Below are positions 26,122-29,512 of a stretch of 64,000 bases of DNA, piece after piece; positions within the stretch are counted from its first letter, which is position 1, and each line of letters opens with the position of its first letter. This DNA comes from Ruania halotolerans. GTDB lineage: Bacteria > Actinomycetota > Actinomycetes > Actinomycetales > Beutenbergiaceae. The notes below the pieces were generated by a model. It searched no databases, was not told where the DNA came from, and saw nothing but the letters and a program-made list of their open reading frames with translations. Made by a program: the position numbers and the translations under genes. The stretch covers positions 3,111,380 to 3,175,379 of the forward strand of contig NZ_CP088017.1 in the NCBI RefSeq assembly GCF_021049285.1, in the 5' to 3' direction.

Positions 26122-26490
26122 TCACGCAGCGGACGTGCTACGCGAGGCGGACGGGGCATAGGGGTCGTTCTTGCGAGGACGTCCACGCCCGCGCTTGCGG
26201 GCCACAACCTGGCCGTCGACGAAGACTTCGCCGCCCCAGACTCCCCACGGCTCTTGCCGTTCCAAGGCGCCGGCCAGACACTCCGCCTTGAGCGGGCATG
26301 ACACGCAGAGTGACTTGGCCCGTTCGATCTCGTCGGTGCGCTCGGCGAACCAGAGGTCTGCTGAGGTGGCGTCCTGGCAGGGAAGGGGTTGGTCGTCAAC
26401 CGCGGCGAGATCGATCGATGTGGACGGGAAGTTCCAGCTAGTCGCCGACCCTCCGCGGGTGAGTTGGTCGAGAACTGAGGTGTACTGCAC
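26122..26490 (-). CDS. whiB7: WhiB7-type iron-sulfur transcriptional regulator with AT-hook
   Basis: A 122-residue Wbl protein. Four cysteines (about 38, 62, 65 and 71; C-x23-C-x2-C-x5-C) would bind a [4Fe-4S] cluster, and the turn GVWGGE follows at about 83-88. The C-terminal RGRGRPRK (about 100-107) is the AT-hook that distinguishes WhiB7, the activator of intrinsic antibiotic-resistance genes that works with the primary sigma factor. The GTG start is preferred because CAGGAG lies six bases upstream; an in-frame ATG six codons earlier has no such site. It is preceded by a long leader with a small ORF and a terminator-like hairpin. Confidence 0.9.
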   Translation of the reverse strand: MQYTSVLDQLTRGGSATSWNFPSTSIDLAAVDDQPLPCQDATSADLWFAERTDEIERAKSLCVSCPLKAECLAGALERQEPWGVWGGEVFVDGQVVARKRGRGRPRKNDPYAPSASRSTSAA

Positions 26491-26570
26491 GAGATGCTCC
26501 TGAGGCATGGTGGGTGATGAGCCGGAGAGGTCCGGTATCACTCGGCGAGGTGTCGCTCGCAAACGAGTAA

Positions 26571-26601
26571 GGCCGCGGACCCGTGAGGGGGCTCCGCGGC
26601 C
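26571..26601 (-). terminator. putative attenuator hairpin in the whiB7 leader
   Basis: On the minus strand GGCCGCGGA (26593-26601) pairs perfectly with TCCGCGGCC (26571-26579) around a 13-nt loop that itself can add three C:G pairs. It is followed by TTACTCGTTTG, a weak U-rich tail. It sits 25 bp past the stop of the small leader ORF and ~80 bp before whiB7, the position expected of a leader terminator. Confidence 0.7.
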
Positions 26602-26625
26602 TGGTCTGCTACAGGAGAGGTGCTC

Positions 26626-26805
26626 TCAGAGCAGTTCCGGGGCGGAGCCTGGTGCGGAGTTGCCGCCGATGGCGGGGTCACCACCGATGGTGGCTCCCGT
26701 GCCGATCTGGCCGGCGGCAGAGCGTGGGCGCACAAAGGTGAACGCACGCAGGTCACTCAGCCGCACGCCGATCGTCGACGCGCTGATCTGGTTCTTCATC
26801 TCCAC
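26626..26805 (-). CDS. small leader ORF (59 aa) upstream of whiB7
   Basis: A 59-residue open frame starting at GTG (26803-26805), with GGAGGTG eight nucleotides upstream, one of the strongest ribosome-binding sites in the window. An ATG two codons later is the alternative. The N-terminal half is helical and charged (MKNQISASTIGVRLSDLR), and the second half is Gly/Ala/Pro-rich (TIGGDPAIGGNS), ending in two Leu. About 80% of codons end in G or C, as in real genes here. The stop codon lies in the loop of a TGCTC/GAGCA hairpin, just ahead of the terminator hairpin. It could be the whiB7 regulatory uORF, a functional small protein or a peptide precursor; it was not recognised as a known family. 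Confidence 0.6.
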   Translation of the reverse strand: MEMKNQISASTIGVRLSDLRAFTFVRPRSAAGQIGTGATIGGDPAIGGNSAPGSAPELL

Positions 26806-26881
26806 TGCGGTTTCACCTCCTTCGGCTCGGGAACCGTGTCTCGCTGGCTAGGCGACGGCTCGTTGTCTCGGAACGGGATTC

Positions 26882-26931
26882 AGCCTACGACGCCCACCAC
26901 GGAGCGCCAAACCTTTTTTCGAAGTTTTTTT
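26882..26931 (-). promoter_or_regulatory. whiB7 leader promoter with A-rich WhiB7-type element
   Basis: Minus strand: -35 TTGGCG (26905-26910), exactly 17 bp, then -10 TAGGCT (26882-26887). Two A-runs (seven and six As, within 26913-26931) abut the -35 box; this AT-rich block is the known mark of WhiB7-activated promoters. The uvrD2 stop codon lies only 7 bp farther upstream. The predicted transcription start is about 26875, giving a leader of about 385 nt before whiB7. Confidence 0.72.
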
Positions 26932-26937
26932 GAGGAA

Positions 26938-28974
26938 CTACTCCGCGGCCTCCGGCTGCGCCCCGTCGCCGGCATGATCGCCCCGGACTGTCGCCAGGAT
27001 TTGCGCCCCGTAGGCCTCGATCTTCGTGGGGCCGATACCCCGCAGGATGGCCAGTTGGCGCATCTGTGAGGGCTGCGCTGCTGCGATGGCCACCAGGGTG
27101 CTGTCATGCATCACAGTGAACGCGGGCCGATCGAGCTCTTGGGCGGTGCGGGCACGCCAGGCGCGTAGCCGTTCGAACACCTCCGGGTCGGCATCCCCCT
27201 CAGCGATTGCCGAGGCGAGCGCCTCAGCGCGTGCCCCCTTACTGCGCCGACGGCGGGTCGGCTGTTCGTCGGAGGGCCAGATGCCGTCGAGAAATCGGGA
27301 GGGTCGGCGAGTGCCGCGCCCGCCGGCGTTGCGCGAGCGGGCAAAGGAGATCTGCAGGTGTTCGCGGGCGCGGGTGATACCCACATACAGCAGGCGCCGT
27401 TCTTCTGCGATGGCCTCGTCCGTCTCGGCCATGGAAATAGGCAGCAATCCGTCGCTTGCTCCGACGAGGAATACCGCGTCCCACTCCAGACCTTTGGCAG
27501 CGTGCAGCGAGGCGAGCGTGACGCCGTCGACAGTGGGAGCGTGCTGGGCGGCCGACCGCTCCCCCAGCTCGGCCACCAGGTCTGCCAGTGTGGCTTCTCG
27601 GGTGCGATACAGATCATCGGCGAGCTGCACGAGGGCGTTCAGCGATTCCCAGCGTTCCCGCACGGCACCTCTGGCGGCGGGCGGCTCTGGCGCCCATCCT
27701 GCGCTGCTGAGCACGTCGCGTACGGTCTCGGGCAGCGTGGCCTCACCCTGCGCTCGAACCGCACCGCGGAGCAGCACGATCGCGTCCCGTACCTCCTTAC
27801 GAGAGAAGAACCGTTCGCCTCCGCGCACGAGATAGCCGATCCCGGCCTTGCTCAGCGCCTGCTCGTAGGATTCCGATTGAGCGTTCGTGCGATAGAGCAC
27901 GGCGATCTCGCTGGCCGAGATCCCACTGCGGATCAACTCGGCCGCCCGCGCCGCCACCGCACCGGCCTCGGACTCGGCGTCGTCGTGGGCCTCGAACCGG
28001 ACAGCCGGTCCGGACGGGCGTTGCGCCTGCAACTCCACCGACGCGGCCGACTTGTGACGACCGGCTCGCGCAAGGACGAGGTTGGCCAGGGAGACCACCT
28101 GGGGAGTGGACCGGTAATCGCGCACCAGGCGCACCACTCTCGCCTCCGGGTAGCGACGAGGAAACTCGGTCAGATACCTGGCGGTGGCGCCGGTGAAGGA
28201 GTAGATGGTCTGAGCGGCGTCCCCCACGACGCACAGATCGTCCCGGCCACCGAGCCACAGCTCAAGCAGGCGATGCTGGAGGGGCGAGACGTCCTGGAAC
28301 TCGTCCACCACGAAGTGGCGGTACTGCCGGCGCACTGTATCGGCCACGTCCTCGCGTTCGGAGAGGATGCCCACGGTGAGCAGCAGGACGTCCTCGAAGT
28401 CGATCACGTTGCGGTCCGTCTTGGCGTCCTCATACACCGAGAGCAGGCGGGCAATCGTGGTGGCGTCGAATCCAGCCACCCCGCTGCGGTCAGATGCGGC
28501 GGAGGCCCGGACATAGTCGTCCGGGGTGATCATGGAGACCTTGGCCCACTCCACCTCGGCGGCGAGATCGCGGATGGCGAGCCGGTCCACCGAGAGCCCT
28601 AGGCGGCCGGCCGCCTCCCCGATCAGCGGGGCCTTGTGCTCCATGATCCGGGGCACGCCCCCGCCGATCGCACTCGGCCAGAAGTACGACAACTGACGCA
28701 GTGCCGCGGCGTGGAAGGTCCGTGCCTGCACGCCGCCGACACCGAGATCGCGCAGCCTGGTTCGCATCTCACCTGCCGCACGTGCGGTGAAGGTGACGGC
28801 GAGCACCGTCTGCGGGTTGTATACCCCGGTGTGCACTCCGTGGGCGATCCGGTAGGTCACCGCGCGCGTCTTCCCGGTGCCGGCGCCGGCAAGTACACAC
28901 ACCGGGCCGGTGAGTTGCTCGGCCGCAGCGCGCTGGTCCGGGTCGAGGGCATCGAGGAGCTGTTCAGCAGACAT
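26938..28974 (-). CDS. uvrD2: UvrD2-type superfamily 1 DNA helicase with HRDC domain
   Basis: A 678-residue 3'-5' helicase. Walker A AGAGTGKT lies at about residues 30-37, motif II is in FVVDEFQDVSPLQ, motif III is GDAAQTIYSFTGA, and motif VI is ITRAREHLQISFA. A C-terminal HRDC domain (about 600-670; LVAIAAAQPSQMRQLAILRG) distinguishes UvrD2 from UvrD1/PcrA. The ATG in MSAEQLL is preferred; a GTG ten codons upstream is possible. It is divergent from mycoredoxin and upstream of whiB7, the same order as in M. tuberculosis. Confidence 0.92.
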   Translation of the reverse strand: MSAEQLLDALDPDQRAAAEQLTGPVCVLAGAGTGKTRAVTYRIAHGVHTGVYNPQTVLAVTFTARAAGEMRTRLRDLGVGGVQARTFHAAALRQLSYFWPSAIGGGVPRIMEHKAPLIGEAAGRLGLSVDRLAIRDLAAEVEWAKVSMITPDDYVRASAASDRSGVAGFDATTIARLLSVYEDAKTDRNVIDFEDVLLLTVGILSEREDVADTVRRQYRHFVVDEFQDVSPLQHRLLELWLGGRDDLCVVGDAAQTIYSFTGATARYLTEFPRRYPEARVVRLVRDYRSTPQVVSLANLVLARAGRHKSAASVELQAQRPSGPAVRFEAHDDAESEAGAVAARAAELIRSGISASEIAVLYRTNAQSESYEQALSKAGIGYLVRGGERFFSRKEVRDAIVLLRGAVRAQGEATLPETVRDVLSSAGWAPEPPAARGAVRERWESLNALVQLADDLYRTREATLADLVAELGERSAAQHAPTVDGVTLASLHAAKGLEWDAVFLVGASDGLLPISMAETDEAIAEERRLLYVGITRAREHLQISFARSRNAGGRGTRRPSRFLDGIWPSDEQPTRRRRSKGARAEALASAIAEGDADPEVFERLRAWRARTAQELDRPAFTVMHDSTLVAIAAAQPSQMRQLAILRGIGPTKIEAYGAQILATVRGDHAGDGAQPEAAE

Positions 28975-29138
28975 TGATTCGATTGTGACAGCCGGGGCTG
29001 ACACGGCATTGGTCCGTCCACAGCACAGCTGACCCACACGATGGGAACAGCACGCGCATGCGCGGTGTTGCACGCGGCGTGGCCACGCGCTGGGACGAGT
29101 GGCCACCCTAGTCCGACCCTCAGAACTGGAGGTTCCCC

Positions 29139-29402
29139 GTGAACGCGATCGCACCACCTGGCGCCGGCAGCGTCGTGATGTACAGCACCACCTGGTGCGG
29201 GTACTGCCGCCGGCTCAAGGGCCAGCTGGACGGCGCCGGAATCCCGTTCACCGAGGTCAACATCGAAGAGGTCCCGGACGCTGCAGCATTCGTGGAGCAG
29301 GTCAATGGCGGCAACCAGACCGTGCCCACGGTGGTATTCCCGGACGGATCCGCGGCGACGAACCCGTCGTTGGCGCAGGTCCGGGAGCGCCTCCTCGCCT
29401 GA
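29139..29402 (+). CDS. mrx1: mycoredoxin (glutaredoxin-like, CGYC)
   Basis: An 87-residue glutaredoxin-fold protein with the active site WCGYC (Cys 20 and Cys 23), the signature of mycoredoxin-1. That enzyme reduces mycothiol-protein mixed disulfides. TVPTVVFPDG holds the cis-Pro. The GTG start has GGAGG six nucleotides upstream. Its location beside uvrD2 and whiB7 is conserved in actinobacteria. The last codons (CTC GCC TGA) are the first copy of a tandem repeat that continues past the stop. Confidence 0.93.
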   Translation: MNAIAPPGAGSVVMYSTTWCGYCRRLKGQLDGAGIPFTEVNIEEVPDAAAFVEQVNGGNQTVPTVVFPDGSAATNPSLAQVRERLLA

Positions 29403-29512
29403 GTTTTGCGTGCGCAGTTCCTCGCCTGAGTCTTGCGTGCGCAGTTCCTCGCCTGAGTCTTGCGTGCGCAGTTCCTCGCCTGAGTTTTCACGTGAGCAGC
29501 TCCTCACCTGAA
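29394..29512 (+). repeat. 27-bp tandem repeat containing the mycoredoxin stop codon
   Basis: Three near-identical 27-bp units (29394-29420, 29421-29447, 29448-29474) begin with CTCGCCTGAG and end with TGCGTGCGCAGTTC. A diverged fourth unit of 28 bp (29475-29502) and a partial fifth (29503-29512) follow. Units 2 and 3 are identical; unit 1 differs from them by one base. Since 27 is a multiple of three, each unit repeats the TGA stop in frame. The short palindrome TGCGTGCGCA occurs in the first three units. Confidence 0.9.

Follow-up and report, generated by a model that had tools for sequence, protein, structure and literature searches.

How is whiB7 controlled at this locus, and does its leader hold anything beyond the attenuator already known in other actinobacteria? 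These questions arise from positions 26122 to 26931 of the window, the whole stretch of 64,000 nucleotides from Ruania halotolerans that was analysed. The original prediction placed on the minus strand, in this order, a promoter with an A-rich block, a leader ORF (uORF), a GC hairpin and whiB7. All of these are present at correctly given coordinates; the genome had also been called compact, which, as a single contig of 4.27 Mb, it is not especially. The locus very probably combines a WhiB7-type promoter, an attenuator controlled by the uORF, self-activation by WhiB7 and a separate conserved hairpin near the 5' end of the leader.

The whiB7 gene itself occupies 26122..26490 on the minus strand and encodes a protein of 122 amino acids, which matches the Pfam family Whib (E 7.4e-14) and carries the sequence features that define WhiB7/WblC, namely four cysteines, the EPWGVWGG turn and the AT-hook RGRPRK, here within a C-terminal RGRGRPRK. 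Across an alignment of 20 sequences, C38, C62, C65 and C71, together with the residues of the turn and the hook, are invariant or nearly so. The GTG at 26490 is most likely the start, because it is preceded at 6 nt by the Shine-Dalgarno (SD) site AGGAG (26497..26501, minus strand) and because the same arrangement is common to all eight genomes of the genus. Orthologues were found in 24/24 genomes of the family at E <= 1e-30 and in 223 of the 296 genomes of the class at E <= 1e-22. The start context CTCAGGAGCA (26505-26490) is kept in 13 of 16 loci (L001, L006-L020), seemingly beyond the needs of the SD site.

The -35 hexamer TTGGCG (26905..26910) and the -10 hexamer TAGGCT (26882..26887), both on the minus strand and both recognised from the sequence and from comparison with relatives, are separated by a 17-bp spacer and predict a transcript start at about 26875-26876. 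On the same strand, the A-rich block at 26914..26931, a probable WhiB7 site, ends 3 bp before the -35 hexamer, the A-run finishing at 26914 and the hexamer starting at 26910. This is the spacing reported in the available part of PMC10727445, where WhiB7 ChIP-seq in M. abscessus revealed an AT-rich sequence 3 bp upstream of the -35 element in all 56 regions. The strict pattern AAAAN{2,4}TTGGN{18,20}TAG has one match in the 4.27-Mb genome, the whiB7 promoter, with 0 control hits; as there is no second site in this genome, the pattern yields no regulon list. A generic scan for sigma-70 promoters returned 0 sites at the whiB7 leader, because the hexamers are far from consensus. Among leaders of Ruania, Mycobacterium, Nocardioides, Pseudonocardia and Jiangella, those with a promoter call share the AT-rich block, TTG and TANNNT, the spacers allowed being 16-18 bp for these named leaders and 16-19 bp for a set of 193. 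In 154 of these 193 leaders both a promoter and a uORF were called, automatically and with no shuffled control, and some of the calls look false (e.g. L196). The same order of leader parts recurs in relatives. The assignment of the promoter to the WhiB7 type is well supported, and by analogy with homologues WhiB7 is likely to regulate its own promoter; from the same homologues, induction of the leader by drugs may be expected.

Between the predicted transcript start and the SD site of the uORF lies a hairpin (26831..26861, minus strand) that was outside the parts listed in the original prediction. It is the least ordinary part of the locus and what sets the leader of this lineage apart from known whiB7 attenuators. 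On top of a covarying outer stem it bears a nearly invariant apex, GCCUAGCCAGC (26853-26843), within which the 7-nt loop CUAGCCA (26851-26845) is likewise nearly invariant. Covariation was assessed in alignment A4, which comprises 24 leaders, gapless and with one fixed linker length, so that some rows are off register. In this alignment, 80.8% of the cells pair, against 64.7% (sd 1.9) after shuffling; two-sided changes affect 49 cells, the shuffled figure being 17.3 (sd 3.3); and covariation amounts to 0.468, against 0.197 (sd 0.028); none of these values was reached by any of 500 shuffles. Two weaker measures, the number of pairs changed on both sides (8 vs 6.9) and that of further pair types (21 vs 17.1), were reached by 134 and 7 of the 500 shuffles, respectively. 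Versions of the stem slid along the alignment gave a covariation of 0.05-0.19. The stem scored 15.2 on average with its own arms and 10.4 (sd 0.8, highest value 13.5) in 2000 rounds of swapping arms between leaders. Neither shuffling nor swapping takes out the kinship among the leaders, and sliding retains it. Changes on both sides occur in all seven outer pairs. The outer stem drifts in sequence with its pairing kept, and the loop with its two GC pairs is almost constant. In the family genome G009, a variant identified by eye has the outer stem GGACC/GGUCC and the apex GGU-CUAGCCA-ACC, in which the loop is kept and the closing pair has changed from C-G to U-A. In some folds the 5' end (GUUCC) pairs with the SD site of the uORF, which barely varies and thus gives no covariation signal.

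The hairpin is present in the whiB7 leader of all 24 family genomes examined and of two genomes of another family. A covariance model, R1, trained on 21 leaders (20 from the family), has its best match at the whiB7 leader in 23 of the 24 family genomes (E 2.7e-7 to 3.1e-4), the 24th being G009; since 20 of these 23 are in the model, most of the family matches are circular. Held out of R1 were G006 and G020, which are near copies of members, as well as G008, G501 and G425. In G008 the match lies on a contig end that bears promoter, hairpin, SD site and uORF start, and whiB7 lies on another contig (L230, L017). G501 and G425, which belong to another family, carry it some 300 bp ahead of WhiB7 coding sequence (identity 55.6 and 58.6%, respectively), and their promoter and SD site are likewise in place. 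The leader of Actinomycetales bacterium JB111 (L044), which is in the model, also carries the hairpin. Across 248 genomes of the order (19 of them from the family), R1 matches at E <= 0.05 occur in 25 genomes outside the family. Among the 33 matches listed outside family whiB7 leaders, eight were inspected, of which two are at whiB7 (G501, G425); the other six, and one further match from the search of the family genomes, have no whiB7 nearby (L225-L229, L232 and L233). Rfam gave 0 matches above the gathering score for the hairpin, and its two sub-threshold hits (E 0.069 and 4.7) are both located elsewhere than at the hairpin. The hairpin goes unmentioned in the available portions of the whiB7-leader literature (PMC13236596, PMC11550727, PMC4128351, PMC10727445, PMC12421871, PMC13393426), and literature searches listed no paper about it. 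That scope does not extend to Poulton 2024 or to Lee, Lee and Roe 2022, and novelty is not claimed.

Two ideas about the apex were set aside. In the window's genome the 11-nt apex has a single occurrence, at the whiB7 leader (0 forward and 1 reverse, against 24 and 6 for the reversed control pattern), which rules out a perfect long antisense partner elsewhere in the genome and leaves room for shorter ones. Mimicry of a tRNA anticodon loop was dropped because the variants CCAGCCA and CUCACCA do not fit it.

Other lineages carry different hairpins at the same place of the leader. GNRA-capped hairpins are seen in Oerskovia, Cellulosimicrobium, Antribacter, Promicromonospora and Sanguibacter (L041, L042, L046, L056, L062, L064, L090). 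Outside the family, 13 of 131 leaders have a loop of the form C[UC]N[AG]CN[AC] closed by 4 bp or more, against 0.9% of shuffles, an excess that is post hoc, as the pattern was written after both loops were known; L024, from another family, is not among the 131. Eleven of the 13 come from four Nocardioides and seven family f45 genomes, with loops such as CUGACAA on differing stems (L100, L101, L105, L112, L118, L119, L126, L144, L169, L187, L190). The hairpins of the CUGACAA kind would at most be candidate counterparts of the CUAGCCA hairpin.

What the hairpin does can be read in more than one way. It may be a plain structural element, protecting the 5' end or keeping the SD site open, with a fixed loop that nothing reads; this is quite plausible, if somewhat short of probable, and agrees with the GNRA loops at the same place and with the CUGACAA-like loops in Nocardioides and family f45. 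Such an element does not readily account for the near constancy of the loop and its two GC pairs on a drifting outer stem, for the compensatory change of the closing pair in G009 with CUAGCCA retained, or for the recurrence of the apex in two genomes of another family. Because the loop is fixed while the stem drifts, the comparison suggests a loop recognised by a partner, and recognition by a specific partner is the leading guess. The fuller proposal, in which the CUAGCCA hairpin is a dedicated receptor for a protein, small RNA, tRNA or RNA polymerase, provides whiB7 with a second input besides the ribosome and has its counterpart in the Nocardioides-type CUGACAA hairpin, is put forward tentatively. 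If it were true, an unrecognised sensor may precede the uORF in whiB7 leaders of actinobacteria at large; if the hairpin binds something at all, it would offer a second point at which intrinsic drug resistance is controlled. The put and EAR elements are 5' RNA elements acting on polymerase or on a termination factor. Like them, the hairpin is 5'-proximal, has a fixed apex and stands ahead of a terminator, and the likeness is offered as a possible analogy, sequence relation having been compared through Rfam (no match). The hairpin is an RNA element that accompanies whiB7 and is backed by covariation.

Downstream of the hairpin, and between the promoter and whiB7, follows a uORF of 59 codons (26626..26805, minus strand, GTG start at 26805), recognised from the ORF listing and from relatives and preceded by a strong SD site, AAGGAGGTG (26814..26822, minus strand). 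In the 16 family leaders in which both were called, the uORF starts 66-74 nt downstream of the predicted transcript start. In erm and other arrest-peptide leaders, translation of a uORF governs a downstream resistance function, and the uORF might accordingly be thought to encode a drug-dependent arrest peptide of the erm kind, whose own amino-acid sequence senses the antibiotic. The existence of a 59-codon frame with a strong SD site and a peptide identity of 41-95% across 12 pairs of relatives are compatible with this idea, which is nevertheless very unlikely: in these pairs, which are non-independent, differences at codon positions 1/2/3 number 111/119/112 in the uORF (618 codons) against 86/57/305 in whiB7 (1354 codons). 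The peptide is not visibly under amino-acid constraint, and no conserved leader peptide of the erm type was found in the 12 pairs; the evenness over codon positions makes arrest by a specific peptide unlikely. The original prediction had stalling in the leader ORF relieve termination, a view that the antiterminator described below supports, with sensing by a specific peptide being less likely than a generic one. The uORF probably responds to a general slowing of translation rather than through one arrest peptide, and the simplest reading is that it is translated for timing and not for its product, although the even pattern could alternatively reflect an untranslated uORF. The present leader resembles those of erm in being controlled by a uORF and differs in that its uORF shows no amino-acid constraint and that control is by transcription termination. 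By sequence comparison the uORF seems to lack amino-acid constraint, and this speaks for a sensor of general stress more than for a peptide specific to one antibiotic.

The attenuator hairpin, GGCCGCGGA...UCCGCGGCC (26571..26601, minus strand), has a 9-bp GC stem and a folding energy of -24.6 kcal/mol, and the leader as a whole folds with z = -3.81 relative to dinucleotide shuffles. Of the features of a Rho-independent terminator, the stem is present and the U-tract, UUACUCGUUUG, is poor, which explains why a generic terminator scan gave 0 sites at the whiB7 leader. The earlier description of an attenuated leader is well supported as regards the uORF and the GC hairpin, and is weakened by the poor U-tract and the negative scan. 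Of 22 family leaders, 15 yielded a stem of at least 9 bp in the scan, and L021, L022, L023, L025, L026, L027 and L029 did not.

Folding and the comparison of leaders revealed that the 5' arm of the terminator takes part in two mutually exclusive pairings, with compensatory changes in several lineages. The second pairing is an antiterminator, of which the original prediction named none. Its 5' strand, GGCUCCGC (26642..26649), lies inside the uORF, 14 to 21 nt ahead of the stop codon's first base, and its 3' strand, GCGGAGCC (26590..26597), overlaps the terminator 5' arm; both are on the minus strand and were identified by folding and compensatory changes. Such changes are GGUUCCG/CGGAACC within the genus (L010, L011, L015) and GACUCCGC/GCGGAGUC outside it (L037, L041, L046). 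When antiterminator partners were swapped among 46 leaders outside the family, own pairs scored -24.21 against -21.37 for swapped ones (sd 0.42; best of 2000 = -22.98); among 23 family rows, one of which is a leader of another family (L024), the difference was not significant (-22.40 vs -21.63, sd 0.51, best swap -23.26). Folding gave the antiterminator a probability of 0.99 in RNA that stops short of the terminator 3' arm, of 0.99-1.00 with a ribosome (assumed footprint 30 nt) at codon 4, 10, 20, 30, 40 or 45, and of 0.00 with the ribosome at codon 50 or at the stop codon. With the 3' arm present, the terminator's probability is 0.97 at equilibrium in every case tested, and the switch is therefore workable only kinetically. 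That whiB7 is controlled at the promoter only, with an incidental GC hairpin, could draw on the poor U-tract, the negative scan and the 7/22 family leaders in which no stem of at least 9 bp was found, but it is scarcely credible given that many lineages show both hairpin and antiterminator, with compensatory changes, and that attenuation is described for homologues in the accessible parts of PMC11550727, PMC4128351 and PMC10727445.

In the attenuation model, the WhiB7-type promoter would produce a leader RNA that the GC hairpin ends by default. Under free translation of the uORF, ribosomes at its end would cover GGCUCCGC, so that the terminator forms and whiB7 is off. When translation is slowed by a drug or by a lack of charged tRNA, GGCUCCGC would pair with the 5' arm of the terminator ahead of synthesis of the 3' arm, and this antiterminator would let polymerase read into whiB7. 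WhiB7 would then bind the A-rich block and raise its own promoter.

The whiB7/wblC attenuators of Mycobacterium and Streptomyces, reportedly those of Lee, Lee and Roe 2022, are likewise governed by uORFs. As described in excerpts of PMC10727445, actinobacterial whiB7 is typically preceded by a uORF and a terminator, and stalling leads to an antiterminator made of overlapping uORF and terminator sequence; sections of PMC11550727 and PMC13393426 also give a uORF-attenuator account. The mechanism at the present locus is that published attenuator, and a known resistance switch is hereby extended to another lineage. As far as the available text of PMC10727445, PMC11550727, PMC13393426, PMC4128351 and PMC13236596 goes, the attenuators of Mycobacterium and Streptomyces have the same AT-rich block by the -35 element, uORF with SD site, terminator (here a putative one), antiterminator and downstream whiB7, from which the present leader differs in its lineage, its poorer U-tract and its extra conserved 5' hairpin with the CUAGCCA loop.

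Some minor observations concern WhiB7-like genes and the neighbourhood of the locus. G009 encodes a second WhiB7-like protein (G009:C1:2108739-2108975, L115), upstream of which the hairpin apex pattern was searched and not found, and second WhiB7-like matches also occur in G002, G007, G045 and G053. The gene upstream of whiB7 (26938..29157, minus strand, start codon predicted), which we take to be uvrD2, encodes a helicase with UvrD and HRDC domains and ends with the stop codon TAG at 26940-26938. Further along, a repeat array at 29392-29511 holds 4.4 copies of a 27-bp unit and overlaps the end of an ORF (29139-29402) labelled by eye as glutaredoxin-like.
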